A stretch of 42,699 bases of DNA from Candidatus Oleihabitans oleiphilus (GTDB taxonomy: Bacteria > Atribacterota > Phoenicimicrobiia > Phoenicimicrobiales > Stramentimicrobiaceae): NCBI GenBank assembly GCA_018054125.1, contig JAGPKD010000005.1:1-42699 (forward strand), in the 5' to 3' direction. A model generated the notes under the pieces. That model saw nothing but the letters and a program-made list of their open reading frames with translations, was not told the DNA's origin and did no database searches. The position numbers were made by a program, and so were the translations under genes. The first letter of the stretch is position 1. Each line of letters begins with the position of its first letter. Shown here piece by piece: positions 4,265-21,460 of the stretch.

Positions 4265-4266
4265 TT

Positions 4267-5064: not shown

Positions 5065-5080
5065 AAATTTAATTTATAAT

Positions 5081-5965
5081 TTACTGGTGATACTTTTCTT
5101 GAATTAGTATCTCCACATCTTCAATAGGTCGTCGAAAAGGACCTTCAGCTTCCATCTTTAAACTGGTTAAGGCTGCTGCCCAAATAGTCGCCTCAGCAGG
5201 TGAAGAATTAATTCTTTTACTCATATAAGAGGCCAGGCAGGTATCGCCTCTACCACTTCTACCAACCAAATTCCGGGGGTAAAAGGAAGCATAATAAAAT
5301 TTTCCTTCTGCAAAAACCAGTAACCCATCCTTATGAGTAGCAACCACCTCTCGAGGACCCTGAGAAGCTATCTTTAGAACAGCCTCTTTAAGGTCTTTTT
5401 CCCCGGTGAGTAACTCTGCTTCTACGGCATCAGTCTTTAAAACAGCAATAGATGAGAGGACTTCTTTTTGTTCCGGCCATGGTTTGGCTACCAGTTTTCC
5501 CTTATCGTTGACCCGGAGAAAACTTTGTATATCAGCAGCCAAAATTGTTTTTTTATTCGCTAATAATTTAATAATCTCTGGAGGAATTTCTTCCCGCATG
5601 GAAGCACTCACCACAATTACTTCTGAATCTATTTTGTCCACTTCTTCCGCACTGAAGGCTCCAGCCCAACTGCTCACATAAATCACTCTTTCATCTGGAT
5701 TATCGGTAGGATATACCAGTTTAAGACAGGTAGATTGTGGAGTCCATCTGACTGAAACTTTTACTCCCAGTCCCTCTAACTCCCGAATTACTTCAACATC
5801 TTGATGGGCAAGTCGAGTAATGGCTAAGGTTTTTAAACCCATTCGAGCTGCCACCTGAGAGCCATAATTAAAAGCTCCTCCATTTACCACCCTCGTTCCA
5901 CTAGCAGAAACAATGGTATCTTTAGTATAATGACCCAAAAAAGCTACTTGATAACTATTACCCAA
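5081..5965 (-). CDS. PfkB-family carbohydrate kinase (paralogue 1)
   Basis: Ribokinase-fold kinase of 294 residues that would phosphorylate a sugar or cyclitol with ATP. Evidence is the N-terminal VVNGGAFNYGSQVAA glycine pair (28-40) that contacts substrate and the C-terminal anion hole GRSGRGDTC with catalytic base D241. The start is TTG at 5965, with GGAGG 9 nt upstream; no ATG fits better. It shares its layout and the GPF-x3-EDVE-x-I ending with the kinase at 8209-9081, so the two are diverged paralogues. It lies 49 nt downstream of a TIM-barrel isomerase and was probably transcribed with it. Substrate is not deducible from sequence. Confidence 0.82.
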   Translation of the reverse strand: MGNSYQVAFLGHYTKDTIVSASGTRVVNGGAFNYGSQVAARMGLKTLAITRLAHQDVEVIRELEGLGVKVSVRWTPQSTCLKLVYPTDNPDERVIYVSSWAGAFSAEEVDKIDSEVIVVSASMREEIPPEIIKLLANKKTILAADIQSFLRVNDKGKLVAKPWPEQKEVLSSIAVLKTDAVEAELLTGEKDLKEAVLKIASQGPREVVATHKDGLLVFAEGKFYYASFYPRNLVGRSGRGDTCLASYMSKRINSSPAEATIWAAALTSLKMEAEGPFRRPIEDVEILIQEKYHQ

Positions 5966-6014
5966 ATTACTAATCCTCCATTAATTAAATAGAACTATTA
6001 TACTTTATTTGAAT

Positions 6015-6854
6015 TTAACTTAAATAAGCAATAGCCTGGTTAATTAACTCTTTTAATTCTCTTTCCTTTAATTTCTGCACTTCTTCGGCAAAGGGTTCAA
6101 AAGAGATAACGCCCTCATAACCTTGTTTGATAAAAAAATCTATCTGTTCTTTGTTCTTAAAGCGATCTTTTCTAAAATCCATATTACGATGCTCATCTCG
6201 ATACTGTCCAGCAGGCAAGCATACGGTAACTGCTGAGATATGCATCAATCCAGTATATCCTATATCATATTCCTTACTCAATCTCTCTAAATCATCCGTT
6301 CCAAGGGCATGATGAAAGGTATCATAAACAATTTTATATCCTTCATATCCTATCTCCTTAATAGCCTTCGTAGCTACAAGAATAGAACGCAGAGAACTGG
6401 TTTCAAAACCCAGTGGTTCAAGATAGCCCTGAATACTATAGTCTTTAAATAAGGGAATTAATTCTTTTAAGCATTGTACAACTTCTAAATATTGTTTTTC
6501 CGAACTAACTAAATCATTTGCTTTATTCATATTCACAGGGCACATAACAATAGACTGACCATCAATCTCTTTTGCCAGGCCGAGAAGATTCTTTAGTTCT
6601 TTAATTGTCCTATCTATTTCTTCTAAATAATTAAATTGTGGTAAGGCATTGATGGAACAGATTTTAATATTATAACGCTTGGCAAGATATCTGATTTCCT
6701 GGGCGGAATAATTATCAATCACCTTTCTTCCTGGTAAATCATTTCGTAATTCCACATACTGAAGCCCTAAATCACGAGCAAGTTGAAAAAAATCTTTTAT
6801 ATCAAAAGAAGGACAAATAATTCTATTCAGCCCAAATCTATAACGTTCAATCAT
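6015..6854 (-). CDS. Xylose-isomerase-like TIM-barrel protein, possibly inosose/keto-sugar isomerase
   Basis: A 279-residue AP-endonuclease-2/xylose-isomerase-like barrel. The start MIERYRFGLNRI is chosen because AAAGGAGAG lies 6 nt upstream (6861-6869) and because it begins 1 nt after the stop of the CDF gene; a longer reading to 6920 would overlap that gene by 65 bases. Metal-ligand candidates are in YLEPLGFE, VYDTFHH, MHISAV and ISFEPFAEE. The opening FGLNRIICPS and YVELRNDLPG resemble IolI/IolH-type proteins, and a PfkB kinase follows, so a cyclitol or keto-sugar pathway is plausible but unproven. Confidence 0.78.
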   Translation of the reverse strand: MIERYRFGLNRIICPSFDIKDFFQLARDLGLQYVELRNDLPGRKVIDNYSAQEIRYLAKRYNIKICSINALPQFNYLEEIDRTIKELKNLLGLAKEIDGQSIVMCPVNMNKANDLVSSEKQYLEVVQCLKELIPLFKDYSIQGYLEPLGFETSSLRSILVATKAIKEIGYEGYKIVYDTFHHALGTDDLERLSKEYDIGYTGLMHISAVTVCLPAGQYRDEHRNMDFRKDRFKNKEQIDFFIKQGYEGVISFEPFAEEVQKLKERELKELINQAIAYLS

Positions 6855-6855
6855 A

Positions 6856-7797
6856 TTAGACTCTCCTTTGCTTTTTGTTAAAATAAGGTTCTTCGCATTC
6901 CTGGCTATTGCAATAATCAAATTCTAATTGGAGATTGGGATGAAATATATGAAAATCATTTTCCAGAATTTCTGCCACTTGTTTTCTGATTTGATCTGCC
7001 TCACTTATTTTCATATCCTTCTTCAAGGTAATATGGCTTTCCAAAAGAATCTTATTTTCATCAATTTGCCAGACATGAACGTGATGTAGATTATGCACTT
7101 GAGGGATTGATTCAATCTTCTTTTTAATATCATCAATTTTAATATTTGCTGGTACTCGCTCCATCAGGATTAGAGTGCTCTGCTTTAGGACCTGATACCC
7201 TTGCACCAGAATAAATAGAGCAATAATAACTGTCAAGATGGGATCGATTAGATAAAAATGATAAAAATAGATAATAATCCCGGCAACAATGACTCCCACT
7301 GAGGAAAATGTGTCACCCAGCAAATGTAAGTAAGCAGAACGCATATTCAGATTTTGATGGATTTCTGGATGCAGTAAACAAACACAAACTAAATCAGCAA
7401 TAAAGCCAAAAACACCAACTACCATCATTAAGGGAATGGTAATCTCAGAAGGTTCTTTAAAACGAAAATAGGCCTCTCTAAAAAGGGAAAAGGAAATAAC
7501 AATGATTACCGAAGAATTAAGTAAGGCGGCCAGGATTTCAGCTCGTTTATAACCAAAGGTCATCTGTAAATCAGGAGACCGCAGACCTATCTTCCTGGCC
7601 AGATAACTGATTAAGATGGCCATTCCATCGCTAAAATTATGCAGGGCATCAGCAAGTAAGGCCAGGCTGCCAGATAATAATCCCCCAATTATCTCGGCAA
7701 GGCAAATCATAAAATTAAGAATAATAGCCAGAACTATTCTCTTATTACTTTTATCGCTCTTATCATGCTGGTTATACTGGGAACTATGATTATGCAT
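6856..7797 (-). CDS. Cation diffusion facilitator (CDF) family efflux transporter
   Basis: Inner-membrane Zn2+/divalent-cation proton antiporter, 313 residues with six predicted spans and a cytoplasmic C-terminal domain. TM2 carries LLADALHNFSDG (D50, H53, D57) and TM5 carries YLHLLGDTFSSVG, the two halves of the membrane metal site; a His-rich N-terminus (MHNHSSQYNQHDKSDK) precedes TM1. The length and motifs fit CzcD-type exporters. It is out of place among sugar genes but is tightly coupled to the downstream isomerase (stop and start 1 nt apart), possibly to tune supply of that enzyme's metal. The ribosome-binding site is weak. Confidence 0.9.
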   Translation of the reverse strand: MHNHSSQYNQHDKSDKSNKRIVLAIILNFMICLAEIIGGLLSGSLALLADALHNFSDGMAILISYLARKIGLRSPDLQMTFGYKRAEILAALLNSSVIIVISFSLFREAYFRFKEPSEITIPLMMVVGVFGFIADLVCVCLLHPEIHQNLNMRSAYLHLLGDTFSSVGVIVAGIIIYFYHFYLIDPILTVIIALFILVQGYQVLKQSTLILMERVPANIKIDDIKKKIESIPQVHNLHHVHVWQIDENKILLESHITLKKDMKISEADQIRKQVAEILENDFHIFHPNLQLEFDYCNSQECEEPYFNKKQRRV

Positions 7798-7886
7798 TAC
7801 ACTTTTTCTTAATATTATTAATATTATTGAGGTTAATTTTAAAAATTATCCAGATTTATTATAACATAAGGTAATAATAATAAATT

Positions 7887-7914
7887 AGTTATCAGTTAAT
7901 AGTTTTCAGATAAA
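7887..7914 (+). repeat. Heptanucleotide array, 4 degenerate units
   Basis: Units AGTTATC, AGTTAAT, AGTTTTC and AGATAAA are in phase at a 7-bp period. This is the leftmost member of the heptad family seen up to 15.4 kb. Bases 7915-7960 resemble one arm of the element at 9408-9545 (GAGAT-ACCAC). Confidence 0.5.
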
Positions 7915-7960
7915 GACGTGGGCATAATGGTATGAGATTACCACGTCCGCCTCTTGTCTC

Positions 7961-8142
7961 TTAACACCAGTCAAGGGAGGTTATTTTGGTGAGATGATCC
8001 AGAAACTCAAATTGGGAAGCACCGGTTGCTGCTATGAGATTAGTTTTCCCTTTTCCTTAATAGCTTCTCTTAATATCTCTGCTGCTTTTTCGGCGGCAGT
8101 TTTGCCCATATTCTCTTTGGAATTCAGGATATATATTTTCAA
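7961..8142 (-). pseudogene. Remnant of a glucosamine-6-phosphate deaminase/6-phosphogluconolactonase-like gene
   Basis: On the minus strand a TTG start at 8142, preceded by AGAGG, opens LKIYILNSKENMGKTAAEKA and AEILREAIKEKGK, then hits a stop. One base later in frame the homology resumes as NLIAATGASQFEFLDHLT and ends at TSLDWC. The AAE-AAEILREAI and ATGASQFEFL motifs are the N-terminal hallmarks of the NagB/SugarP_isomerase fold. Only about 60 of some 240 residues survive, with one frameshift and no 3' part, so this is a decayed gene, not a working protein. It sits directly downstream of the second pfkB gene, with which it was probably once an operon. Confidence 0.72.
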
Positions 8143-8208
8143 ATATTAACCTCTCTGTTACTTTTTTTGATATATTTTAGCATAGGGAGATTCAAACTAA
8201 GAAAGTTA

Positions 8209-9081
8209 TTAATAATTCTCTCTAATGAACTGCTCCACATCTTCTCTTTTCCCTTGGAAAGGTCCAGGATTTGCCAGTTTAAGAGAAGTCAAGGCCACAG
8301 CAAATAGTAAAGACTGGTCAACATCTTTACTCAATCTTTCCGAAAGATAGGCTGCAAAACAGGTATCACCTCTTCCAGTTCTCCCTGATAAATTCTTCGG
8401 TTTTAAGGGATAATGATAGAAAGTTAGGCCATCATAAACTAACACTTCACTATGATGGGTAATGATAATTTCTTTGGCACCCCAATGAAAAAGTATCTTT
8501 GCTGCCTCCCTGGTATCTGACTTACCAGTCAAAAATTCAGCTTCTGCCGCATCAGCCTTTAGATAATCAATATAGGGTAAATATCGTTCTTTTCCATCCC
8601 AGCTCTTATAAAACAGTTTTCCATCCTCACCCACATTTCTTAAAAATCCCTGCACATCTACTGCAATTTTCCCTCTACCAGAAAAAAAATTAATCAAATC
8701 AGTTTGATATTCACCATAAATAAGGCTGGCAAAATGAATAATTTTAGCTCTTAAATGATCGGGGATTTCGGTAATAAGAAAAGGGTCAGCAACCGACAGG
8801 GCAGTACTGATTCTCTTCTCCCGACTTTCATCCAGATAGATATTTCTAATAGAAGTAGTCTTCTGGGAAGGAATGAACAAAATATTTTCTTTAGGAATAT
8901 TAAACTGTTGGATTAAGTGAGAATCAGCTTTACTCACCTTAGTCCAAACAGCTACCTTATGACCTAAAGAAGAATAAACTGAAGAAGAATATAGAATTGC
9001 TCCCCCAATATTTTTTTCTTTATTAGATAAATAAATATTTTCATCTATAGAGATATGACCGATGACCAAAAAATCAAACAT
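8209..9081 (-). CDS. PfkB-family carbohydrate kinase (paralogue 2)
   Basis: Ribokinase-fold kinase of 290 residues. Substrate-side glycines are in NIGGAILYSSSV (24-35); the ATP/anion-hole block is GRTGRGDTC with catalytic D239. It shares VDVQGFLR, KADAAEAEFLTG and GPFQGKREDVE with the kinase at 5081-5965. Upstream lies AAGGAT and an out-of-phase ATG (ATG TTA TAT GTT TGA) overlapping the region of the start; the ATG at 9081 gives MFDFLVIGH, the normal beginning of the fold. The downstream partner gene has decayed (7961-8142). Substrate unknown. Confidence 0.82.
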   Translation of the reverse strand: MFDFLVIGHISIDENIYLSNKEKNIGGAILYSSSVYSSLGHKVAVWTKVSKADSHLIQQFNIPKENILFIPSQKTTSIRNIYLDESREKRISTALSVADPFLITEIPDHLRAKIIHFASLIYGEYQTDLINFFSGRGKIAVDVQGFLRNVGEDGKLFYKSWDGKERYLPYIDYLKADAAEAEFLTGKSDTREAAKILFHWGAKEIIITHHSEVLVYDGLTFYHYPLKPKNLSGRTGRGDTCFAAYLSERLSKDVDQSLLFAVALTSLKLANPGPFQGKREDVEQFIRENY

Positions 9082-9107
9082 ATAACATATAATCCTTAAA
9101 TAAGATA

Positions 9108-9129
9108 TTCAGGGGAAGATTCCCCTGAA
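9108..9129. repeat. Perfect inverted repeat, 10-bp arms
   Basis: TTCAGGGGAA and TTCCCCTGAA are separated by GA. The core matches the dyad at 68-90. It lies 27 bp upstream of the pfkB start at 9081 and so could be an operator or a leader hairpin, or simply a copy of a dispersed element. Confidence 0.7.
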
Positions 9130-9143
9130 ACCCCTCAAATATC

Positions 9144-9178
9144 AGTATTTAGTATAAAGTAATTAGTATATAGTTTAA
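9144..9178 (+). repeat. Heptanucleotide array, 5 units
   Basis: AGTATTT, AGTATAA, AGTAATT, AGTATAT and AGTTTAA follow one another without a break, each beginning with AGT. Confidence 0.65.
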
Positions 9179-9249
9179 AGGTGATAAGCATTACTATATT
9201 TAGCTTTAATAGACCATAGGCACAATATAAAATTCAGTTTACCTTATAA

Positions 9250-9286
9250 GTAATACGGTATACCATTTTTTGTCATTGCGAGGAGC
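9250..9286 (+). repeat. Direct repeat copy 1 (GTAATACGGTATAC ... GCGAGGAGC)
   Basis: Thirty-seven bases that recur at 9387-9422 with one substitution and one fewer T. The end is GTCATTGCGAGGAGC, an extragenic sequence I recall from many environmental bacterial genomes (recollection, not a search result). Confidence 0.65.
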
Positions 9287-9292
9287 CGATTC

Positions 9293-9327
9293 AGTAATAA
9301 GTAACCAGTAATAAGTAATGAGCAAAT
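9293..9327 (+). repeat. Heptanucleotide array, 5 units
   Basis: AGTAATA, AGTAACC, AGTAATA, AGTAATG and AGCAAAT occur in exact 7-bp phase. Confidence 0.7.
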
Positions 9328-9373
9328 GGCAAACTAAATGCCAGATACCAACAACCAACGACTAATTTCAACG

Positions 9374-9401
9374 ATATACGTTATACGTAATACGGTATAC
9401 G
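9374..9401 (+). repeat. Heptanucleotide array, 4 units of NNATACG type
   Basis: ATATACG, TTATACG, TAATACG and GTATACG are in exact phase. The sequence class differs from the AGTAATN arrays but the 7-bp period is the same. Confidence 0.6.
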
Positions 9402-9407
9402 ATTTTT

Positions 9408-9545
9408 GTCATTGCGAGGAGCAAAGCGACGAAGCAATCTCATTCACTTATACCTGCACGATTATAAAAAAGATTTAAGTTAACAGCAGTTTTCAGACAA
9501 AATCATAGACATAAATAAATGAGATCGCCACATTTGCCTTCCCCT
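9408..9545. mobile_element. Probable MITE-like or extragenic palindromic element
   Basis: The left end is GTCATTGCGAGGAGCAAAGC (9408-9427) continuing to GCAATCTCATT; the right end contains AATGAGATCGCC (around 9518-9529), the near-perfect complement of GCAATCTCATT. The arms enclose about 75 bp with no gene. A partial relative of the right arm occurs near 7940-7960. No transposase is present, so movement, if any, would be in trans. Confidence 0.5.
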
Positions 9546-9707
9546 TGACAATCCCTGAACTAAAGTAAGAATTTATTGTCCTTTCCTCACCCGCTCTCCT
9601 CCCTCTATCTCGAAGGGAGATGGTGAGGGTGATAATATCAACATATGCCACTATTGTTTATTACCAGTTCTAACTTACCCAAGTGATATTTGAGCTTATT
9701 AGATAAG

Positions 9708-10751
9708 CTACAAAATTAGTAATCTCCCTTCTGGATTAAACCGCTGATATAAACTCTTTCTGATTTCCTGTTTTTCTTTATAAGCAGAAATATGATTATA
9801 ATTACTCTTCTCCCAGGGAGGTATAGTTAGTAGTGCCTGCCCAAATTCTGCTAAAAGCTTATTCTCATATTCTCCCTTATAGCTCTTCTGAACAAAGCGT
9901 TCTAATGCTTCCGGAAAATTACGCCAGGATTCCTGTTCACGCCCAGGAAAAATGGGATAAAAAAGTCCATTATTAGCTTTAACTGCCTTTAAGTCACCAT
10001 CCCCATCTCCTAACATTAAAACCTGTTCATCTTGATAAGGCCCGGCTTTTTTAGCCATTTCAATATGATGTGCTTTGGAACCCATTTCCTGACCGGCAAT
10101 CAGCTGCACATATGGAGCTATCCCCTGGGCTTCCCAGTAATTGACCAGGTCATCGTAAGGTGTTTTTGATACTACTAAAATATCAGCAACCTTATGCATC
10201 AACTTGAGACATTCTACCACACCATCAAAAGGTGGTATTTTGGCAGAAATATAAGGGAAAGTACGATTTACTGCTTCACTCCAGCCTAATAATTTATATA
10301 AGGCAAAATTGGTAGGGTGCTTATCAATAAACTGCTCCAGGCTGGGATTACCCAAACCCAGTTTATTCTCTTCGGCAAATTGAATATAATCAGCTAATGG
10401 TTTTTTATCTGGTAAGGAAATATTTTTGTTAAGTAACACTTCTTTTACATCTCTTCTTTTTTGTAAAGCCTGAAGGGTAAGTTGAATAGCTATAAAACGG
10501 TTACAACCACGGTCTACTGAAAAAAGATTATAATACTCCGCCACTTCTCTAAAATATGATTCAATATCCCATAATTGATAAAACTCCATAAAATGAGGAT
10601 GAAAAATAAGCATCTGCTTACCATTCATATTATCAGTAATACAACCATCAGTATCAATAGCTATTAGAAATTCTTTGGTCTTCTTAAAGTTTCTTAATTG
10701 TTGTTCTGGATCTTCTTTTATTTGTTGAGGGGTTAATCTTGGTACTGACAT
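9708..10751 (-). CDS. HAD-superfamily hydrolase
   Basis: A 347-residue phosphatase-fold protein. HAD motifs are complete: I, DTDGC with nucleophile D33 and D35; II, VVSKT (193-197); III, K226 in GQEMGSKAHH; IV, GDGDGD (248-253). A long cap of about 150 residues lies between motifs I and II, and about 70 residues extend the C-terminus. AGGAAGGAG precedes the ATG. It is 113 nt downstream of a phosphofructokinase gene, in the same direction, so it probably dephosphorylates a sugar or sugar-acid phosphate of the same pathway; substrate is not visible. The best generic alternative is a phosphoglycolate-phosphatase-like housekeeping role. Confidence 0.75.
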   Translation of the reverse strand: MSVPRLTPQQIKEDPEQQLRNFKKTKEFLIAIDTDGCITDNMNGKQMLIFHPHFMEFYQLWDIESYFREVAEYYNLFSVDRGCNRFIAIQLTLQALQKRRDVKEVLLNKNISLPDKKPLADYIQFAEENKLGLGNPSLEQFIDKHPTNFALYKLLGWSEAVNRTFPYISAKIPPFDGVVECLKLMHKVADILVVSKTPYDDLVNYWEAQGIAPYVQLIAGQEMGSKAHHIEMAKKAGPYQDEQVLMLGDGDGDLKAVKANNGLFYPIFPGREQESWRNFPEALERFVQKSYKGEYENKLLAEFGQALLTIPPWEKSNYNHISAYKEKQEIRKSLYQRFNPEGRLLIL

Positions 10752-10774
10752 TTTACTCTCCTTCCTATAATTTC

Positions 10775-10866
10775 AGTAATGAGCAATTAGTAATGAGAAT
10801 AAGTTAAATACAAAATCAGAAACTGTTTATCATTGATTACTAATCACTGGTTACTTATTACTTATC
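10775..10866. repeat. Two heptanucleotide arrays between the PFK and HAD genes
   Basis: At 10775-10795, plus strand: AGTAATG, AGCAATT, AGTAATG. At 10835-10866, read on the minus strand: AGTAATA, AGTAACC, AGTGATT, AGTAATC. Together they occupy most of the 113-bp spacer and reach the PFK stop codon. Confidence 0.6.
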
Positions 10867-12181
10867 AATGATTTCTATATTCTACTGGAATATATTTTCC
10901 ACATTTTGGCGGGATAAAAATATCTTTAAATCTGGTAAATTCAGGTAATGGTCCCCCGATTAGGGGCTTAGCCCAGTGAACATAGTCATCAGTCACATCA
11001 CTCTTATTTTTAGCAATCCATTCCTGAGGAAATTCCCGCTCTGAGTTGGCAACCACATCTAAGGGCACTTTATCATATCTTACCCTATAACTTTTCCCGG
11101 GATCCCTGATAATAGTTGACATGTAACCATCTTCACCTTCCAATGCTAATCGAGCAGAATAGACTCCTACCTGGTAGGCTTCTTCCCGATCCACTTCGGA
11201 AACATAGGCCAACTCCCGCCTTTGTCTGGTACCAGGATTTTCGGTGCGGGCAATACCTGGTACCACCAGGCGACTTTTAGCTCTTCCCTGTTCATCTCGT
11301 CTATCCAAACCATTTAAGTAATTAATTAGTAAATTACCAGCAGCAGAACCACTGGCACTAAACTGAGGATGACCAAAACTATCTTTTAATATAGTTAAAT
11401 CACCCAGATTTACTCCCTCTCCGACTACCACTATACAACGACCAGCTTCTTTTAATTTTTTATTTACACTCTCGGTAATAAATTCTAAATTGGATTTACT
11501 ATCGTCCTGAGAAAGAGCTTCCGGTAAAAATATTAGTAAAGGCATTTCTCGTTCTGGATCGGCTAAACGAGCTGCTGCCGGAATAAAGCCAATTTTTCTG
11601 CCCATCACCGTAATAACCAGAACCGGGTCACTGGTATAGCTTGCTTTATTCTCTTCATTTGCTTCTAAAATATTAATAGCCAAATTTCTAGCCACACTAC
11701 CATAACCAGGGTCATGGTCGCAAATAGCAAAAGTCCCATCAGACTGCAGGGAACCACCCACATCATTGTCAATGGTCTTGGGCATACCAACACAGACTAA
11801 ATCCAATCCCTCCTCCCGGGCAACTCTGCTTACTTTATAAGCAGTATCCATAGAATCATTACCACCACAATAGAAAAAATAACCAATTTTTTGTTTTTGA
11901 AAAACCTCTACAATACGATTTAAATCTTCATCACTTTTTATTTTGTAGCGACAACTACCCAGGGTACCTGCAGAAGGAGTGTAAGATAATAAGTTGATTT
12001 GATGTTTATCCTGTGCTGAAATATCAAGTAGTTCTTCTTTTAAGACTCCTAAAATTCCCATTTTAGCTCCCAATACTCTTTCAATTCGGTCTGATTCAAA
12101 AAGAACATCAATTACCCCTTTTATAGTACTGTTAATTACTGAGGTTGGGCCGCCTGATTGGGCAATAACGGCATTAGTCAT
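10865..12181 (-). CDS. 6-phosphofructokinase, probably pyrophosphate-dependent
   Basis: Phosphofructokinase-fold enzyme, 438 residues, converting fructose-6-phosphate (or a related sugar phosphate) to the bisphosphate. GGPTSVIN (10-17) binds the phosphoryl donor. Where ATP enzymes have GGDGS this one has GGNDS (106-110); the D at the position normally occupied by G, and K135 in PKTIDND (134-140), are the residues known to select pyrophosphate. The N replacing the first D is unusual. MGRKIGFIPAAARLA and the C-terminal YVSEVDREEAY blocks fit the long PPi-type clade. AAAGGAGG precedes the ATG, and the gene begins 17 nt after the LarA-like gene, so the two are co-transcribed. Confidence 0.85.
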   Translation of the reverse strand: MTNAVIAQSGGPTSVINSTIKGVIDVLFESDRIERVLGAKMGILGVLKEELLDISAQDKHQINLLSYTPSAGTLGSCRYKIKSDEDLNRIVEVFQKQKIGYFFYCGGNDSMDTAYKVSRVAREEGLDLVCVGMPKTIDNDVGGSLQSDGTFAICDHDPGYGSVARNLAINILEANEENKASYTSDPVLVITVMGRKIGFIPAAARLADPEREMPLLIFLPEALSQDDSKSNLEFITESVNKKLKEAGRCIVVVGEGVNLGDLTILKDSFGHPQFSASGSAAGNLLINYLNGLDRRDEQGRAKSRLVVPGIARTENPGTRQRRELAYVSEVDREEAYQVGVYSARLALEGEDGYMSTIIRDPGKSYRVRYDKVPLDVVANSEREFPQEWIAKNKSDVTDDYVHWAKPLIGGPLPEFTRFKDIFIPPKCGKYIPVEYRNH

Positions 12182-12198
12182 TATAAAATAAACCTCCT

Positions 12199-13485
12199 TT
12201 AATGCTTTTTCAATTTATACAAATATTTTCCTCCATGCTCTATCCATAGTTGATGAGGCTGCCTGAAATCTTCTTGGTGTATGGTAAGAGGGTCTCGATA
12301 ACCTAAATTAACCTCATGACAAACTCTCTCGGGAATGCCAGTAGCCAGGGATATTTGAAAATCACATTTCTCCTCCCTGGTGGGTAAATTATAGCTACCT
12401 GAACCGCGCACATTGATAACATGGGCAGCAACATTGCGAGAGGTATCTGGAAATTTCTTCAAATACTCCAGAACATAATCTTTGCAGTGATATCCTATTT
12501 TTCTAATGCTATTTTCCATCTCCTGCTGAGAATGAAAACGGCAAATATGTGGTGCATAGATAATAATTTCCCCACCTTTAGCCATCACGCCGGGACTCTG
12601 CAGTTTATAGGAACCCTTCCCGGCAGTCCAGAATTCATCATAACATAAATCCATAACCTGAACTACCTGTCTTAACGGTTGTTCAATATAAATTAGATGA
12701 ATTTTAGAACTGGCCAGGGCAGCTGCTTGATATGCCTCCTGAAAACCATCATAACCTGTCCCCACATATAGACCTTTAGCCATAATTTTATTGTTTTCTA
12801 CCTCTTGTAAGAGCATATTACAGGAAATCACCGGCACCTTGATTGCCCTAAAGATATAGGAAGAACCTTCATTGATTACCCTTCGTGCTGGATTATCAAT
12901 CGAACCTATAATATCAGGTATACCAACCAGCACCGCAGCCCAATGTAACAAATCAATAACTTCCGGTCCAGAAATACCCGGGAAGAATACCTTTGATCCT
13001 CCAGCATAACCAGCCGATTCATGCGGAGAAGTACCGCTTAAGGCAATTATCAAATCATAATTATCCAGAATAAACTTATTTACCACCACTGGTATAGCTT
13101 GCCTTAATTCCTGTTTAGTTTGCTCAGCAACAAAAGAGGAATCTATCTCGCCAACCTGTACTAACTGTTCAGGATTATCAAACTGATGATTGAAGTGATT
13201 AGTAAAAACAATATCTTCTTTTATTCCTAATTTGTTTCTAATTTCTGTTTCAGTCATTTTACGGTGAGTTCCACCGGCATTAAGACTATCAATCTGGATC
13301 AACTTTTTCCTCTTTAACTCCCGGTAAATAATGGGAACCAGCCGATCGGTAAAATCCACCCGAGAATAGTCCGGATGAATCAATAATACTTTTTTCAGTT
13401 GGTCAAAACCTGCTAACGTCTCTTTGACTATCTCCTCCAGCTGACCATCAGTCAATTCATCCTGCAGCTCTTCAATTGAGAGCAT
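12199..13485 (-). CDS. LarA-like nickel-pincer racemase/epimerase
   Basis: A 428-residue member of the lactate-racemase (LarA, DUF2088) family, which uses a covalently bound nickel-pincer nucleotide to racemise or epimerise 2-hydroxyacids by hydride transfer. Residues matching the LarA site are present: the GGTHRKMT block (71-78), H155 in GTSPHESAGY, the cofactor-bearing lysine K165 in AGGSKVFFPGIS and H181 in IDLLHW. The cofactor genes larB, larC and larE are not in the window. Being next to 6-phosphogluconate dehydrogenase and PFK, it is more likely to act on an aldonate such as gluconate than on lactate; that is inference. AAAGGAGGG precedes the ATG. Confidence 0.82.
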   Translation of the reverse strand: MLSIEELQDELTDGQLEEIVKETLAGFDQLKKVLLIHPDYSRVDFTDRLVPIIYRELKRKKLIQIDSLNAGGTHRKMTETEIRNKLGIKEDIVFTNHFNHQFDNPEQLVQVGEIDSSFVAEQTKQELRQAIPVVVNKFILDNYDLIIALSGTSPHESAGYAGGSKVFFPGISGPEVIDLLHWAAVLVGIPDIIGSIDNPARRVINEGSSYIFRAIKVPVISCNMLLQEVENNKIMAKGLYVGTGYDGFQEAYQAAALASSKIHLIYIEQPLRQVVQVMDLCYDEFWTAGKGSYKLQSPGVMAKGGEIIIYAPHICRFHSQQEMENSIRKIGYHCKDYVLEYLKKFPDTSRNVAAHVINVRGSGSYNLPTREEKCDFQISLATGIPERVCHEVNLGYRDPLTIHQEDFRQPHQLWIEHGGKYLYKLKKH

Positions 13486-13503
13486 AATCTCTCCCTCCTT
13501 TTA

Positions 13504-13531
13504 AGTAACAAGTAATAAGTGATAAGTAATA
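13504..13531 (+). repeat. Heptanucleotide array, 4 units
   Basis: AGTAACA, AGTAATA, AGTGATA and AGTAATA occur in exact phase, starting 19 bp upstream of the LarA-like start codon. Confidence 0.7.
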
Positions 13532-13624
13532 TGATTCCTTATCTCTTTTTTTACTGATTCACCATTTTCACTACTGGAAATTTTTTTACTACTCATTTTT
13601 TATTTATTACCCTATATTAAATAC

Positions 13625-13665
13625 TTATAACTAATTACTCATCACTTATTACTCATTACTAATCT
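13625..13665 (-). repeat. Heptanucleotide array, 5 units, minus orientation
   Basis: On the minus strand, just after the gnd stop, AGTAATG, AGTAATA, AGTGATG, AGTAATT and AGTTATA are in phase. With 13504-13531 it forms an inverted pair flanking the 179-bp spacer. Confidence 0.7.
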
Positions 13666-15152
13666 TATAGTTCTTCTTCCGGGCGCCCGGGAAGCATCCA
13701 TTGAGTGTGGAATTCCTTCCATTCATTATTCTTATTGAGTATTATTTCTGGATTATGAGGACTTTTTAACTTAAAGTAACCATGAGCTCCAAAATAATCC
13801 CTCTGAATAGCAGCTACCTGAGCTGAAACCATAATCGGGCTACCAAGCTGCAAAATGTAATCAAAAGAGCCATCCATTCCCGGGACAGGAACACCAGCCT
13901 GGTGAGCAATTTCAATAAAACTGGCTAATTTACTTAGATTATTCTTTACCACTTCCAGAAAACGTGGTGCTACCAATAAGCTTATTAAATCTGGATTTTC
14001 CTGATATACCTTGGTAATTTCATCTAAAAACTGAGCCCGAATAATGCAACCAGCACGCCATCCTGCTACTATATTTTTTAAATTTAAATTAAATTGATAT
14101 TCCTTTGATGCGGCCTGTAATAAAGCCATACCCTGAGCATAAGAAGACAATTTCGCTAAATAAAGGGCATCATGGGCTATCTGGATTAAACTTTCCCGAT
14201 CAGTCTGTTTTATTTTTACCTGGTAGGAAGGAAGTTTCTGAGAAAGTTTGATTCTTAACTCCTTATCCTGGGACATCTCCCTGGAAAAAACAGCAGCAGT
14301 GATAGTAGGAATAGGAACCAATAGCTCTAAGGCACTCTGGACTGTCCAGGTACCGGTCCCTTTCATGCGAGTAATATCTGCTACTACCTCAACAAGAGGA
14401 TAATCTCCTTTTTTATCTTTTTCCTTCATACTTTCAGCTGTAATTTCTATCAGATAAGAACATAAAACATCCTCTGGATTATTCCATTCTGCCATAATTT
14501 CGGCAATTTCTGGAGAAGTTAATCCTAAGGCCTTCTTTAAAGTCCAAACACATTCACCAATCAATTGCATATCTCCATATTCAATCCCATTATGCACCAT
14601 CTTAACATAGTGACCGGCTCCATGTGGGCCAATGTAAGAAACACAGGGTTTGTTATCTTTTGCTTTGGCAGCAATCTTTTCCAATAAGTCCTGCACCAGT
14701 CGATAAGCTTCTTCTTGACCACCAGGCATAATAGCTGGTCCTTTTAAAGCTCCTTCTTCGCCACCAGAAATTCCGGTTCCTATATAGAGAAAGCCTTTTT
14801 CGGCCAGGTATTTATTGCGCCTTATAGTATCTTTAAAGAATGAGTTGCCTCCATCAATAATCAAATCACCCTTATCCATCAAGGGAATCAATTTCTCAAT
14901 AAAATCATCTACTGCTTCTCCTGCTTGCACTAACAATATAATTTTCCTGGGTCTTTCCAAGGAAGCCATAAACTCTTCCAGGGAATAGGTAGGGGTAATT
15001 TTTTTACCTCTGGCAATGCCTTTGGTAAATTCTTCGGTCTTAGAAGCTGTTCTATTGTAAACTGAAACAGAATATCCTTTATCCTCTATATTTAGAGTCA
15101 AGTTCTGACCCATAACACCCATTCCTATTAAACCAATCTGGGATTTTGACAT
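13665..15152 (-). CDS. gnd: 6-phosphogluconate dehydrogenase, decarboxylating
   Basis: Oxidises 6-phosphogluconate to ribulose-5-phosphate and CO2, giving NAD(P)H. The protein has 495 residues, the long dimeric form. Seen: dinucleotide site GLIGMGVMG (7-15), NRT after strand 2 (usual for NADP), substrate block SGGEEGALKGP (129-139), the catalytic K184/N188 segment VKMVHNGIEYGDMQ (183-196) and C-terminal RDYFGAHGYFKL with a late FHTQW. About 20 extra residues lie between the FGAH and FHTQW segments compared with the E. coli form. AAAAGGAG precedes the ATG. Its placement upstream of the LarA-like gene suggests an aldonate-to-pentose-phosphate branch. Confidence 0.93.
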   Translation of the reverse strand: MSKSQIGLIGMGVMGQNLTLNIEDKGYSVSVYNRTASKTEEFTKGIARGKKITPTYSLEEFMASLERPRKIILLVQAGEAVDDFIEKLIPLMDKGDLIIDGGNSFFKDTIRRNKYLAEKGFLYIGTGISGGEEGALKGPAIMPGGQEEAYRLVQDLLEKIAAKAKDNKPCVSYIGPHGAGHYVKMVHNGIEYGDMQLIGECVWTLKKALGLTSPEIAEIMAEWNNPEDVLCSYLIEITAESMKEKDKKGDYPLVEVVADITRMKGTGTWTVQSALELLVPIPTITAAVFSREMSQDKELRIKLSQKLPSYQVKIKQTDRESLIQIAHDALYLAKLSSYAQGMALLQAASKEYQFNLNLKNIVAGWRAGCIIRAQFLDEITKVYQENPDLISLLVAPRFLEVVKNNLSKLASFIEIAHQAGVPVPGMDGSFDYILQLGSPIMVSAQVAAIQRDYFGAHGYFKLKSPHNPEIILNKNNEWKEFHTQWMLPGRPEEEL

Positions 15153-15421: not shown

Positions 15422-16246
15422 TCATACTCCCGAAAAGGCACTAAATCCACCGTCAATGGGCACTATAATACCGGTTACAAAACGAGCATTATCAGAAGCC
15501 AGCCAGATGCAGGCACCTATTAAATCCTCAGGGTCTCCAAATTTACCCATGGGAGTATGGGCAATAACCAATTTTCCTCTTTGAGTTAACTGGCCATCTT
15601 CAGTAGTAAGGAGAAAGCGATTCTGATTAGTCAGGAAAAAACCAGGTGCTAAGGCATTCACTCTAATGTTAGAATTATACTGCTGAGCAAAGTGAACAGC
15701 CAGCCATTGGGTAAAATTACTGACAGCGGCTTTGGCAGCTGAATAACCAACCGTCTTGGTCAAGGGACGAAAGGCAGTCATAGAAGAAATATTAATAATA
15801 GAGCCTCCTCCTTCGTTGTTCAACATTTCCCTGCCAAACACTTGGGAAGGAAGAATGGCTCCACCAAAAAGATTTAAACCCACTACTTTTTCCAGTGCCT
15901 TAACCGGCAAATCGAAAAAGGAAAGTTCTTCTGAAGTAGTGGCTTCTTTTTGGTTGCCACCAGCAGCATTAACTAATATATCAATCTGTTTAAAATCTTT
16001 AATAATTTCTTCTTTACAAGTCTTAATTTTTTCAATATCCATTACATCCAGATAATATCCCTTACTATTAATTCCTTCCTTACTTAACTTTTCAATTAAC
16101 GGTTTGGTATCAACAATATCAGCAATAACAACATTAGCACCAGCATGGCCTAAACCTCTGGCAATTACAGAACCCAATATCCCAGCTCCACCAGTTATCA
16201 CTGCCGTTTTCCCCTTTAAGCTAAATTTTTGTAATATATCTTTCAT
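15422..16246 (-). CDS. uxuB: SDR-family D-fructuronate reductase (mannonate oxidoreductase)
   Basis: Short-chain dehydrogenase of 274 residues that reduces D-fructuronate to D-mannonate with NAD(P)H. Cofactor motif TGGAGILG (18-25), NAAGG (93-97) and catalytic S155, Y168 and K172 are all present. The extended segment AAGGNQKEATT, the AFRPLTKTVGYSAAKAA stretch and the insertion ending GQLTQRGKLVIAHTPMG match the Bacillus-type SDR UxuB rather than the long-chain E. coli enzyme. AGAGGAGG precedes the ATG, and the gene lies 64 nt after uxaE in an evident uxaC-uxaE-uxuB operon. Confidence 0.82.
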   Translation of the reverse strand: MKDILQKFSLKGKTAVITGGAGILGSVIARGLGHAGANVVIADIVDTKPLIEKLSKEGINSKGYYLDVMDIEKIKTCKEEIIKDFKQIDILVNAAGGNQKEATTSEELSFFDLPVKALEKVVGLNLFGGAILPSQVFGREMLNNEGGGSIINISSMTAFRPLTKTVGYSAAKAAVSNFTQWLAVHFAQQYNSNIRVNALAPGFFLTNQNRFLLTTEDGQLTQRGKLVIAHTPMGKFGDPEDLIGACIWLASDNARFVTGIIVPIDGGFSAFSGV

Positions 16247-16310: not shown

Positions 16311-17816
16311 TTATAAGCTTAACAAATCTAAATGGTACTTAATATGCTGGCTAACTGCTTGATAATGCATTTTTTCATTATCAAACAATGTTTGATAAAT
16401 CCTGTCTCTAAATCTATATTCTCCTCTTTCATTCTTTTCCCTTAAAATAGAGCCATAAGTAATATGAATCAATTGTCGGGCATTGTTATTAGAAAATAAG
16501 GTTGCTAGTTCCTCATCTTTTAATCGGTCAATATCAGGTATTTTCTCTAAATTTGTGGAGAGATGGTAGGAAAAACGATCTCGCTCAAAACAAGACAGGG
16601 CAAATTTATGAATTTCCCGATATAAATCTGGTTGACACTTAGCAATAACTTTAACTGCCTCTAACCAGCTGGTCCCGGCGGTCTTAATGTGAAAGAAATT
16701 ACCTGATTCCCGGGCAAAAATGGGATATACTGAAAACTTATCGCTACCAGAATGTAAGGAAAGCTTATATCCTCCCAATTGAGAAGTAATCTGGCAATGT
16801 AATCTAAATTCTTGCTGAAAAGTATCCACCTCCCCAATATAATCAATCCCTTTTTCCCAGTCTCCCATATAATGGGGAGCCAAATTCTGAAAATCTACTC
16901 CTCTACGCTGTAATTCAGAGGCAATCCAGAGGTGAGCTAAGGGGGAGGTGGGCTGCGGTGTCTCATCTATAGATACCTCCAGTTCAAAATCCTCTTTATT
17001 TTTTTCTTTTAAAAATTGATAGCACTCAGCAACATATTCGATGGCATTGATATAAATTAATACTATTTCTGCCAGATTATCTTGCTTGAAAACCAGACTA
17101 TGCTTTCCTATTTGATATTCCTTATCAAGGTATATCTTTTCCATCTCACCTCTTTCCGGTAATCTTTGATATTCCTTTTTTAACTCCTCTCGAGTTAATT
17201 TCATAATATCATTATTAATATGGTCAGAAGGGTCCAAGGTATAAAGCTTAAATCCACAATTGATTGCTTCTTGTAGATTATCCAAATCTTTAATATGGTC
17301 GGCATCGGCGCCAAAGGGTCCCTCATGGCCGACCTCGAAACATCCCCAGAGGGCATTATCCAGTACCTTCTGTAAACTGCTTTCAGTACGGGTGATTTCT
17401 CTGGTAGATAGTTGGGCTAAGACCGGAAAAATATTCTTTCCCTGAAATGCCTGAATATGAGCCGGGGTAGCAATACCCAACCGGTCTCCAGTACCAAAGG
17501 AAGGGATAGATTTCTCCTTAGTGCAAGATGGCTTGAGATAATTCAAGAAAATTTGTAATTGAACTAAATTATCATGGGTCAAGGGGCAAATCTGAAATAA
17601 TATATTCTCATCGCTATTTATTAATTTTTCTTCCACAGCCTGAAATTTCAGCTCTTTTAACTTTTCCGGGAGACCTGCTACCGTTAGGTACTTTTTTTGC
17701 CTATCTTTCACCATAAAGAAAGAATATCCGTCCCTTTCCTTCAAAGAAAATGGATAAATTTCATATCGTTGCGCAAATATTTTCCCGAATAAATCTATAA
17801 TTCTTTCCCCTACCAT
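16311..17816 (-). CDS. uxaE: D-tagaturonate epimerase
   Basis: Interconverts D-tagaturonate and D-fructuronate, letting galacturonate enter the fructuronate-mannonate route without tagaturonate reductase. The protein has 501 residues, the usual UxaE length. Recognised by FGTGDRLGIATPAH (107-120), the metal-site-like EVGHEGPFGADADHIK segment, SIDETPQPTSPLAH and LSLHSGSDKFSVYP. The sequence LSTNLEKIPDIDRLKDEEL and the C-terminal RQLIHITYG also fit. It sits between uxaC and uxuB, exactly where the intermediate requires it. AAGGAG precedes the ATG. Assignment rests on motif memory and context. Confidence 0.8.
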   Translation of the reverse strand: MVGERIIDLFGKIFAQRYEIYPFSLKERDGYSFFMVKDRQKKYLTVAGLPEKLKELKFQAVEEKLINSDENILFQICPLTHDNLVQLQIFLNYLKPSCTKEKSIPSFGTGDRLGIATPAHIQAFQGKNIFPVLAQLSTREITRTESSLQKVLDNALWGCFEVGHEGPFGADADHIKDLDNLQEAINCGFKLYTLDPSDHINNDIMKLTREELKKEYQRLPERGEMEKIYLDKEYQIGKHSLVFKQDNLAEIVLIYINAIEYVAECYQFLKEKNKEDFELEVSIDETPQPTSPLAHLWIASELQRRGVDFQNLAPHYMGDWEKGIDYIGEVDTFQQEFRLHCQITSQLGGYKLSLHSGSDKFSVYPIFARESGNFFHIKTAGTSWLEAVKVIAKCQPDLYREIHKFALSCFERDRFSYHLSTNLEKIPDIDRLKDEELATLFSNNNARQLIHITYGSILREKNERGEYRFRDRIYQTLFDNEKMHYQAVSQHIKYHLDLLSL

Positions 17817-17889: not shown

Positions 17890-19320
17890 TTATAATTGAA
17901 AAATTTTCCTTTGATTTTCTATCATCAGTCCCTTAGTAGCCCTAAAAGCTCCTTCTTTTGAAATTGCTCCAGTGGACCATAATTTACCTAATGCTCGGCA
18001 AATAACGCGGTCAAACACTTCAAAGCGACTCCCCTCAGACAATATTTTTCTTCCATCGCAAACTGGACCGGCACTGGAAGACCAGAGGGAGGCAGAGATA
18101 AGATGGAGCAAACAGTCTTCCATAATATAAATATTGTCATTCTGCCACCAGGGAAATCCGGTGTGAACACGAGGGAAGGCTCTTTCCAGCATTAAGTTGG
18201 TAGGAAAGAAGGTTTGATTCATAGAATACAAGACTAAATGCCCCTCATTTTCATCTTTCCCGCTAAAAAATTTAGATAAAAGTGGTCTTAAATTTTCCAC
18301 CACATTGATATGGTCTGCCGCCACATCACCACCTACATCTGGACCCCACTGGCTGAATAAATATTGGTTGGCATTTCTTACTGCCCCATAATGAATTTGA
18401 GTAACCATTCCCTGCTCTTGATTCATAGCACAAAATTGATGCATCAGGTAAGAAATAAATTCTTTTGTTTCATGGGCATAGATACTGAAAGATTTCTTTT
18501 GCTCATATGCCTCTTGAAAAATTTGTTCAGCCCTTTTTTGCTCTACTTCCAAACCATATGGTTCTAATAAACCGTGGTCACTAGCGCGAGCACCCATCTT
18601 AGCAAAATAAGCATGTCTTTCTCTTAATCCCTCCGCCAGTCCATTTAGAGCAACATCCTGACCGGTAAGCTGACAGATTTTTTCCACATTGTTTCTCCAT
18701 TTCGAATCAAATATATTACCATAGGCATCCGGGCGAAAGGTAGGAAGAAATTTAATCCAGGGTATCTCTCGGGACTGTTCATGGTAGTGCAAATCATCAC
18801 AGGGATCATCTGTAGTACAAATTAGTCGAGCATTCGCTCTTCTTAATATGTTCTGTGGTAAAAATGATTCTTTTTGTAATTGCTCTTTAGTTCTCTGCCA
18901 GATCTGCTCTCCAGTCTTTTCACTTACTAAATCTTCAATATCAAACATTCTTTTTAAATCAAGATGCATCCACTGGTGAACATGATTCCCCTCCATATGG
19001 GGAAATACTCTTGCCAGTGCCATCCATTTCTCAAAATCAGAAACATCACTATCTCGGGCAAAGGATTGAGAAAAACCATCCAGTTTAGCAGCCAGCTGAA
19101 TGATATAATGGTCATTGTTCTTATATTCTTCTTTATCCTCCAGAACCTCTGCCCTCCAGATATTGGGAAATGGTTTGTTTTCAATAATTTGCCTTAAATT
19201 ATGATGAGTATGAACATCAACAATGCCTTCCTTTTCCCGTAAGGGAATGGCGCATTCAAAATAAAGTTCTTGTGCCTCTTTGTTATCTAACAACCAATTC
19301 TTTCCTAAATATTCACCCAT
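17890..19320 (-). CDS. uxaC: Glucuronate/galacturonate isomerase
   Basis: Amidohydrolase-fold uronate isomerase, 476 residues, converting D-glucuronate to fructuronate and D-galacturonate to tagaturonate. The signature metal site is VDVHTHHN (34-41), and LICTTDDPCDDLHYH is the family hallmark. Also seen are FKxMGARASDHGL (FAKMGARASDHGL) and the WSSSAGPVCDGRKI segment near the end. GGAGG is 14 nt before the ATG, and a two-codon ATG-AAC-TAA lies in between (19324-19332), an odd arrangement for the first gene of the operon. A promoter lies just upstream at 19349-19377. Confidence 0.88.
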   Translation of the reverse strand: MGEYLGKNWLLDNKEAQELYFECAIPLREKEGIVDVHTHHNLRQIIENKPFPNIWRAEVLEDKEEYKNNDHYIIQLAAKLDGFSQSFARDSDVSDFEKWMALARVFPHMEGNHVHQWMHLDLKRMFDIEDLVSEKTGEQIWQRTKEQLQKESFLPQNILRRANARLICTTDDPCDDLHYHEQSREIPWIKFLPTFRPDAYGNIFDSKWRNNVEKICQLTGQDVALNGLAEGLRERHAYFAKMGARASDHGLLEPYGLEVEQKRAEQIFQEAYEQKKSFSIYAHETKEFISYLMHQFCAMNQEQGMVTQIHYGAVRNANQYLFSQWGPDVGGDVAADHINVVENLRPLLSKFFSGKDENEGHLVLYSMNQTFFPTNLMLERAFPRVHTGFPWWQNDNIYIMEDCLLHLISASLWSSSAGPVCDGRKILSEGSRFEVFDRVICRALGKLWSTGAISKEGAFRATKGLMIENQRKIFQL

Positions 19321-19466: not shown

Positions 19467-20948
19467 TTATTTTTTGGGTACTGGAAACTGCCTCTTCAAA
19501 GAATATAAGAGGGAAAGAATAGAAATGACGTAGAAAAAGATAGCAATGGGGGATTGAAAAAGTACTCGCCAATTTCCATGTGAAATAATTAAGGCTCTGC
19601 CAAGCTCATCTTCCACAATGGGACCTAATATTACGCCTAAAACAACAGGAGCTACTGGAAAATCATTTTTCCTCATAATATATCCGATAATCCCAAAAAC
19701 CAGGGCAATTAACATATCATAAACAGTATTGCTTAAGGAAAAGGCTCCTAAAAAGCACAGGACAAATATTACCGGGAAAAGGATAGAATCCGGTGTTTTT
19801 AAAACTTTGGGAAACAACCTTACACATAATAATCCCAGGATCAGAAATACAACATTGGCTAAAAACATACCGGCAAAAATAGGATTAATAATTTCAGGAT
19901 GCTCTTTAAACAACAGAGGTCCAGGCCTAATACCTATCAGAATTAAAGCACCCAGCATCACTGCAGTTACCGCATCTCCAGGGATACCAAGAGATAAAAG
20001 TGGTACCATTGCCCCACCAGTAGTACCATTATTTGCTGCCTCTGGTGCTGCAACACCTAATATATTCCCTTTACCAAACGATTCCGGATCTTTTGACCAT
20101 CTTTTTACTTCGTTATAAGCTAAAAATGAGGCTATGGTTCCTCCGGTCCCTGGAACAATACCGATGAATACTCCCAGAAAAGAGGAAGGAATAATAACGG
20201 TTAACAATCTTTTAAACTCTTGAAAAGAGGGTAAAACATTGGTTATCTTCTGTTCGGGATGGATGACTCTTTCTTTTAATATTTGATTTTCAAACTGGAT
20301 AAAAACTTCTGATACGGCAAATAGACCAACCAGAACAGGCAAAGTAGAAAATCCTCTCATTAAATTAGGGATATTAAAAGAAAAACGTGCATATCCAGTG
20401 ACTGGATCAAGCCCAACAGTAGCTACCAATAGCCCAAAAAATCCGGCAATCAAGCCTTTCACCAAAGATTTTCCGGCAACACTGGCAATAATGGTCAGGC
20501 CAAATATCATCAGAGCAAAATACTCCTCTGGCCCAAATTTAAGAGCAATCCTGGCTAATTGCGGAGCGATAAACATTAAACAAAAAGTAGAAATAAGGCC
20601 TCCTATTGCGGAAGCAATGGTAGCGACTCCAATTGCCTTTCCAGCTTCTCCTTTCAGAGCTAAGGGGTATCCATCAAACACTGTTGCCGCCGCTGATGGA
20701 GTACCGGGTGTGGAGATAAGAATTGCTGATATTGAACCACCATACATTGATCCGCAGAACATTCCACAAAGCATATTTATCGCTGTGGGTGGGTCTAAAT
20801 AATAAACAAAAGGCAGAAGCAATATTATTCCAACCGAACCTGTTAATCCAGGAATGGCACCTACTATAATTCCACCTACTACTCCAAACAAAAGAAACAA
20901 GAAACGCGAAGGATGTAAAACATATAAAAAACCTTCAATAATTGACAA
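19467..20948 (-). CDS. tctA: Tripartite tricarboxylate transporter, large membrane subunit TctA
   Basis: Inner-membrane permease, 493 residues with about 10-12 spans, the normal size for TctA. The N-terminal GAIPGLTGSVGIILLLPF (about 31-48) and CGSMYGGSISAILISTPGTP blocks are diagnostic; the second half repeats the pattern (IGIVPGTGGTIASFLAYNEVKR, GGAMVPLLSLGIPGDAVTAV). The start is TTG at 20948 with GGAGA 8 nt upstream. With TctB and TctC it imports carboxylates using the ion gradient; a hexuronate or aldarate is plausible here. Confidence 0.92.
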   Translation of the reverse strand: MSIIEGFLYVLHPSRFLFLLFGVVGGIIVGAIPGLTGSVGIILLLPFVYYLDPPTAINMLCGMFCGSMYGGSISAILISTPGTPSAAATVFDGYPLALKGEAGKAIGVATIASAIGGLISTFCLMFIAPQLARIALKFGPEEYFALMIFGLTIIASVAGKSLVKGLIAGFFGLLVATVGLDPVTGYARFSFNIPNLMRGFSTLPVLVGLFAVSEVFIQFENQILKERVIHPEQKITNVLPSFQEFKRLLTVIIPSSFLGVFIGIVPGTGGTIASFLAYNEVKRWSKDPESFGKGNILGVAAPEAANNGTTGGAMVPLLSLGIPGDAVTAVMLGALILIGIRPGPLLFKEHPEIINPIFAGMFLANVVFLILGLLCVRLFPKVLKTPDSILFPVIFVLCFLGAFSLSNTVYDMLIALVFGIIGYIMRKNDFPVAPVVLGVILGPIVEDELGRALIISHGNWRVLFQSPIAIFFYVISILSLLYSLKRQFPVPKK

Positions 20949-20976
20949 CTTTTGTTTCTCCTTTCCGGAAAATCAT

Positions 20977-21441
20977 CTAAAACAGAGCAAAACGAGGAAG
21001 AGGAATTTTAAATACCATCTTAAATACCACATACAGTACAATCGTAGTAGTTATTGATACCACTAGAATCCGGATAATTCTCTTTTCCTTAAAAAGTACC
21101 ATATTACCTGCCACAAAGAGAGGTGTAGTATATAAATAACCTAGCTTGGTAATAAACCTGGTATACAAAAAAGCCAAGGATATCATTAATATTAATTTAA
21201 ATATAAAAACTTTATTGAGTTTCAGTTTTTCTTTACTCTCCCTAGAAGCGTCTTTAGTAATTCCTTTTACTCCTTGTATTAAAAGGATTAAAGAAAGTAT
21301 CATCAGACTGACACTGACAAAACGCGGAAAGGCAGTCGGTGCCAGGGCAACAGTTTGATGAGGGAATTGAAAGGTCAAGGAAAAAAACACTATGGATATA
21401 ATTATTAAAATAATGCTTAGAATAATTTCTTTTTTCCCCAT
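20977..21441 (-). CDS. tctB: Tripartite tricarboxylate transporter, small membrane subunit TctB
   Basis: A 154-residue membrane protein with four or five hydrophobic spans, placed between tctC and tctA as usual. TctB proteins are recognised mainly by size, topology and place; the FPHQTVALAPTAFPRFV segment after the first span (reading P-T-x-FP-R) is the most conserved part. A hairpin precedes it (21461-21506) and AAGGAT is its ribosome-binding site. Confidence 0.85.
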   Translation of the reverse strand: MGKKEIILSIILIIISIVFFSLTFQFPHQTVALAPTAFPRFVSVSLMILSLILLIQGVKGITKDASRESKEKLKLNKVFIFKLILMISLAFLYTRFITKLGYLYTTPLFVAGNMVLFKEKRIIRILVVSITTTIVLYVVFKMVFKIPLPRFALF

Positions 21442-21460
21442 TTAAAATCCTTTTTTTAAA

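Follow-up and report, generated by a model that had tools for sequence, protein, structure and literature searches.

A family of Atribacterota keeps enzymes that depend on the nickel-pincer nucleotide (NPN), although the genes known to make this cofactor were not found in its genomes. The case rests on a gene cluster in the window, i.e., the whole stretch of 42,699 nucleotides that was analysed, which belongs to a draft genome (G000; 1.67 Mb, 181 contigs, 88% complete). Its nearest named contig is from Candidatus Atribacteria UBA6794, with an epimerase that is 95% identical. Quite probably, the cluster serves an Atribacterota bacterium as an operon for the catabolism of hexuronates (uronic acids from plants), in which mannonate would be converted to gluconate by an NPN enzyme and NPN would be either scavenged or produced by unrecognised enzymes. 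This reading draws directly on gene identities, residue conservation, synteny, gene absences and purifying selection. The pathway amounts to a Thermotoga proposal extended to uncultured sediment bacteria; what matters more than the pathway, and is worth following, is the retention of NPN enzymes by a lineage whose NPN genes are missing. If true, the lineage possesses selected, residue-perfect LarA enzymes without larB, larC and larE (larBCE), and NPN would be a shared or scavenged cofactor or the product of a novel synthesis route.

Features of the cluster are listed in Table 1. A sequence-only reading of the same DNA had recognised four adjacent genes, for a HAD-superfamily protein, a PPi-type phosphofructokinase (PPi-PFK), a LarA-like racemase and 6-phosphogluconate dehydrogenase (Gnd), and all four were confirmed on the minus strand with exactly the same boundaries. 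Upstream of gnd, the block comprises, in order of transcription, an M24 peptidase, TctC, TctB, TctA, UxaC, UxaE and a UxuB-type short-chain dehydrogenase/reductase (SDR). Intergenic gaps are 17-179 bp among the four genes and 17-269 bp across the whole block. Promoter and terminator scans performed no better than scans of shuffled sequence. A terminator-like hairpin with a 9-pair stem lies at 9108-9129 on the minus strand, between the HAD and PfkB genes, with a scan score not above chance; judging by this hairpin, the PfkB gene may be transcribed separately from the HAD gene in G000.

Table 1. Predicted genes of the uronate cluster and their supporting matches (positions in the window)
Feature	Position	Strand	Basis
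PfkB-family kinase, 3' of HAD gene; candidate aldonate kinase by position only	8209-9081	minus	PF00294; TM0415 180 bits
HAD-superfamily protein, 347 aa	9708-10751	minus	Sub-threshold Pfam HAD_2 match, 20.7 bits (cut-off 23.8); motifs; weak fold match
PPi-type phosphofructokinase	10865-12181	minus	NF010675 340 bits (cut-off 273); PDB 3k2q and 3hno (PPi-dependent PFK); MPKTIDND motif
gntE, LarA superfamily, predicted D-mannonate/D-gluconate 2-epimerase, 428 aa	12199-13485	minus	PF09861 77 bits; PDB 4NAR 470 bits
gnd, 6-phosphogluconate dehydrogenase, decarboxylating	13665-15152	minus	TIGR00873 592 bits (cut-off 426.7); PDB 2w8z 494 bits
UxuB-type SDR, D-mannonate (fructuronate) oxidoreductase	15422-16246	minus	NF006132 348.9 bits (cut-off 281)
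uxaE, tagaturonate/fructuronate epimerase	16311-17816	minus	PF16257 598 bits; PDB 9lhu 524 bits
uxaC, uronate isomerase	17890-19320	minus	PF02614 321 bits; NF002794 352 bits (cut-off 387)
TctA, TctB, TctC, tripartite tricarboxylate-type transporter, presumed uronate uptake	19467-22514	minus	PF01970, PF07331, PF03401

The LarA-like protein, here named GntE, showed full-length homology to a characterised enzyme, matching PDB 4NAR over residues 9-427 with 50.8% identity. 4NAR is GntE2 (LarAH20) of T. maritima, for which conversion of D-mannonate to D-gluconate was measured with a KM of 17 mM and a kcat of 197 per s (PMC7583248). An E-V/S loop and a Trp in helix 11 mark the gluconate-epimerase groups of the superfamily (PMC7583248), and in the residue map the corresponding E156, S157 and W286 of GntE are the same as in 4NAR. 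Residues D72, R75, H108, H174, K184, H200 and K298 of LarA correspond to D39, R42, H74, H155, K165, H181 and K290 of GntE. All NPN-binding and catalytic residues that were checked are kept in GntE and in every orthologue examined from f1 (the GTDB family to which the window belongs) and f2 (f2-f7 being other families of Atribacterota). GntE is under purifying selection in f1, with dN/dS of 0.08-0.16 by a simple pairwise count in which the wider pairs are near synonymous saturation. Given the reaction of the T. maritima homologue and the gene context, GntE is predicted to act on D-mannonate and D-gluconate. Inversion of an aldonate at C2, from mannonate to gluconate, had been proposed from the sequence, and the 51% identity to GntE2 and the gluconate-epimerase signature support it.

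The same residues bear on whether GntE is an ordinary lactate racemase that lies beside gnd by accident. It belongs to the same superfamily as lactate racemase and shares its NPN residues, but the F175-F176 loop of LarA is E-S here and Y294 is W, and the protein scored 199 bits with the hexonate epimerase model NF052594 (cut-off 500) versus 65 bits with the LarA model; this identity can practically be dismissed. NF052594, a putative hexonate epimerase model that represents LarAH group 18, is the best NCBIfam model for GntE. However, GntE falls far below its cut-off, and the similarity of GntE to 4NAR far exceeds that to its homologues in f3, f4 and f6. These homologues (33-36% identical) also have the E-loop and W signature, and our guess is that they belong to LarAH group 18. 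In the tree, GntE grouped with f1 and f2 sequences and 4NAR, apart from those of f3, f4 and f6; 4NAR sits on a long branch, and the tool cautions about joins of this kind. One f2 sequence (L078 in G049, a genome with larBCE present) nested within the f1 clade, hinting at transfer of GntE between families.

A substrate other than mannonate, such as another hexonate or an aldarate, would make the likeness to the mannonate enzyme a mere resemblance. Specificity is not fixed by 51% identity. In addition, GntE1 (LarAH19) of Corynebacterium glutamicum, which is likened to our protein by its LarA superfamily membership and the same measured reaction rather than by sequence, differs in having a high KM, close to 120 mM, for mannonate, and the authors of that work suspect a different native substrate (PMC7583248). 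Against this, the neighbouring UxaE and UxuB yield mannonate and the neighbouring Gnd needs 6-phosphogluconate, so that exactly the mannonate/gluconate reaction is bracketed, and we regard another substrate as improbable.

To our knowledge, larB, larC and larE encode the sole pathway to NPN. The sequence-only reading, which had suggested looking for these three genes, had not anticipated that each of them would be missing, over the cut-off, from all ten f1 genomes. LarC (PF01969) gave no match in these genomes even at E values up to 1, apart from one of 9 bits; LarE (TIGR00268) gave at most 57 bits and LarB (NF033503) only weak matches of about 40-50 bits. Neither set of weak matches was accepted as hidden genes: those to LarB covered only its C-terminal part, and the ORFs behind them were 161-177 residues long, a pattern that PurE would give; those to LarE were low-scoring, with comparable weak matches found alongside true larE in other genomes. 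In the 50-genome sample of the phylum, LarC was detected in 32 genomes, LarE in 29 and LarB in 31, most matches scoring about 215-535 bits, and most genomes of other Atribacterota families had larBCE at full scores. T. maritima likewise matched LarC in the control set, in contrast to f1.

Enzymes of the LarA type are nevertheless widespread in f1: they occurred in nine of ten genomes (all but G006), and GntE in six. Lar_N and LarA_C domains were both present in the scanned paralogues, and the inspected ones kept the equivalents of His108, His174, Lys184 and His200 wherever the sequence was complete. Paralogues L153-L157 are located near genes for isocitrate/isopropylmalate dehydrogenase-like proteins, fumarase and aldehyde ferredoxin oxidoreductase. 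The pattern of LarA-type genes without larBCE recurs outside f1, in G026, G027, G035, G036, G042, G043 and G046, although single genomes could represent assembly gaps. G026 and G027 belong to one genus of f4; G027 is 97% and G036 98% complete.

All genomes analysed are drafts of 68-100% completeness, and the f2 genomes G042 and G046, which carry GntE and also have no larBCE, could contain assembly gaps. Nonetheless, it is very improbable that the absence of larBCE from f1 is an artefact of incomplete drafts or of divergent genes missed by the models. G002, G005 and G007 are 100%, 98% and 96% complete, and the chance of ten independent misses is near 2.5e-11 when completeness is read as per-locus recovery. 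The same models also scored full-length genes elsewhere in the phylum at about 250-535 bits, and what they found in f1 was weak and, for LarB, partial and PurE-like.

If NPN were truly unobtainable, GntE would be inactive, and this point counts against our explanation. That GntE is dead or decaying, a relic from before NPN synthesis was lost in this lineage, would be consistent with the absence of all three genes from f1, but the conserved residues and the low dN/dS argue against it, and the operon is intact in several genera, as are the LarA-type paralogues. Because the residues are conserved and selection is acting, an inactive enzyme is unlikely, and we give the relic little credence. On genomic grounds, we favour uptake of NPN or another route of synthesis over a dead enzyme. 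Given that f1 is without the LarB-LarE-LarC pathway, its members probably either acquire NPN from other organisms or synthesise it with enzymes not yet recognised as such. We lean towards the view that f1, and separately some further lineages of Atribacterota, rely on functional NPN enzymes in spite of the missing pathway: NPN or one of its late precursors would be obtained from neighbours in the manner of a vitamin, or NPN would be made by an undiscovered pathway. One published survey describes genomes with larBCE but no larA (PMC11796402), the opposite of the pattern seen here. Our literature search, which did not reach Desguin et al. 2014 or Rodionova et al. 2012, found no report of LarA without larBCE.

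The block UxaC-UxaE-UxuB-Gnd-GntE-PPi-PFK-HAD is kept in two Atribacterota families, f1 and f2. UxuB-Gnd-GntE was present wherever the contig extends; UxaE preceded it, PPi-PFK and HAD followed, and most loci also had UxaC. Independent Atribacterota contigs showed the same order, even where epimerase identity fell to about 64%, and it is thus not due to chance; conserved synteny of larA, pfp and gnd, on which the sequence-only reading had staked its proposal, was therefore borne out in both families. Most of the epimerase homologues in f3, f4 and f6 also adjoin a Gnd (41-46% identical). Two irregular loci were noted. In L109 (G042), positions 7871-10381 hold GntE and PPi-PFK in one frame of 836 aa with the C-terminal end of GntE lost, either a fusion or an assembly error. 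In L105 (G002, the 100% complete genome), gnd at 2770-4487 is split into two open frames, reflecting a frameshift or a sequencing error.

Based on these gene assignments, a route from hexuronates to lower glycolysis can be proposed. TctABC would import a uronate, UxaC would isomerise galacturonate or glucuronate, UxaE would convert tagaturonate to fructuronate, and UxuB would reduce fructuronate to D-mannonate. GntE would then convert D-mannonate to D-gluconate by inversion at C2 with the nickel cofactor, a kinase would phosphorylate gluconate to 6-phosphogluconate, and Gnd would decarboxylate the latter to ribulose-5-phosphate. PPi-PFK could carry pentose phosphates into lower glycolysis, perhaps with sedoheptulose-7-phosphate as its substrate. 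In this scheme, we infer the flow of substrates, the kinase, the substrate of PPi-PFK, the role of the HAD protein and the source of the cofactor, and take the GntE reaction from the T. maritima homologue. Such a route would stand in for mannonate dehydratase (UxuA), and also for glucose-6-phosphate dehydrogenase as a source of 6-phosphogluconate.

The distribution of these two enzymes is consistent with the proposal. The suggestion that the window's cluster bypasses a missing mannonate dehydratase agrees with the f1 genomes as far as the UxuA type of this enzyme is concerned: no genuine uxuA was found there, and partial matches to this type reached at most 26 bits. Genuine UxuA was detected in three of the 50 Atribacterota genomes, all from one genus of f4. 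Two partial matches in G000 (25-26 bits) were rejected as uxuA; the one inspected is a TIM-barrel protein of 270 aa. In addition, zwf was detected in none of the ten f1 genomes, though gnd is conserved there; nine of 14 control genomes gave a match. Where zwf is lacking, Gnd must be supplied with 6-phosphogluconate that derives from gluconate or an equivalent; this provides strong indirect support for the route, and the absence of both genuine uxuA and zwf from f1 makes GntE the likely link between mannonate and 6-phosphogluconate. The proposed connection of mannonate through gluconate to Gnd is also supported by the contiguity of UxaC, UxaE, UxuB, GntE and Gnd in the window and in relatives. 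On the other hand, a 2-keto-3-deoxygluconate (KDG) kinase of the PfkB type and a KDPG aldolase are present in the window, implying an Entner-Doudoroff exit for some substrate, and this counts against the bypass. The two genes are adjacent (31284-33292), lie within a separate cluster of TRAP-transporter, KduI and Gfo/Idh genes, and each match part of the aldolase/sugar kinase fusion model NF041633.

The mannonate-gluconate idea is well supported as right in outline, but it is not new, as T. maritima has a GntE route. Rodionova et al., in 2012, are said to have proposed this branch for T. maritima. Its enzyme step was shown in 2020 (PMC7583248). The two systems share full-length epimerase identity of 51%, the signature, the NPN residues, and the proximity of uronate genes and gluconate chemistry. 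They differ in what follows GntE, which here is PPi-PFK and a conserved HAD protein, and in that gntE of T. maritima lies between the genes for fructuronate reductase and gluconate kinase, whereas our cluster has no recognisable gluconate kinase.

This kinase is the weak point of the chain. No gluconate kinase of TIGR01313 was found over the cut-off among the 50 genomes. In the FGGY family, G000 encodes a glycerol kinase and two XylB-like proteins, which all scored below the gluconokinase cut-off and were rejected as gluconokinases. G002, at 100% completeness, contains GntE and had no FGGY match. Failure to find a gluconate kinase in the FGGY and GntK families leaves a hole in the chain and counts against our explanation. 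The PfkB gene 3' of the HAD gene was present in all five f1 loci readable that far (G000, G003 (same contig as L002), G007, G009 and L003). Its nearest solved relative is TM0415 of T. maritima, which we take to be a myo-inositol kinase. Two TM0415-related PfkB kinases occur within 4267-6920 and 8209-9081. They are accompanied by an ABC transporter and by TIM barrels that resemble xylose isomerase, and these regions may form an inositol-type cluster.

The order of phosphorylation and epimerisation could also be reversed, with mannonate phosphorylated first and 6-phosphomannonate then epimerised to 6-phosphogluconate by the LarA-like protein or another enzyme. This order was documented by cell-extract assays in Lactobacillus suebicus, which, similar to our system, proceeds through UxaC, UxaE and UxuB to mannonate and then, with no mannonate dehydratase involved, to 6-phosphogluconate and pentose phosphates, but phosphorylates mannonate first and exits through phosphoketolase (PMC6978723). 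The lack of a dedicated gluconate kinase here would suit it as well. However, the tested homologue GntE2 uses free D-mannonate (PMC7583248), and no LarA protein is known for phosphorylated hexonates, given that the epimerase gene of L. suebicus is unidentified. We consider phosphorylation before epimerisation unlikely and retain epimerisation of free mannonate by GntE as the preferred order.

The HAD protein is the last conserved member of the block and is probably a phosphatase. Its motifs DTDGC, SKT and GDGxGD are invariant across eight homologues. An AlphaFold model based on eight sequences had a mean pLDDT of 58 and its Foldseek hits were HAD proteins; given the poor model, these hits support the HAD fold only and not a substrate. 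4-Phosphoerythronate is a known inhibitor of Gnd, and a metabolite-repair phosphatase, e.g., one directed against this compound, would fit the place of the HAD gene in the operon.
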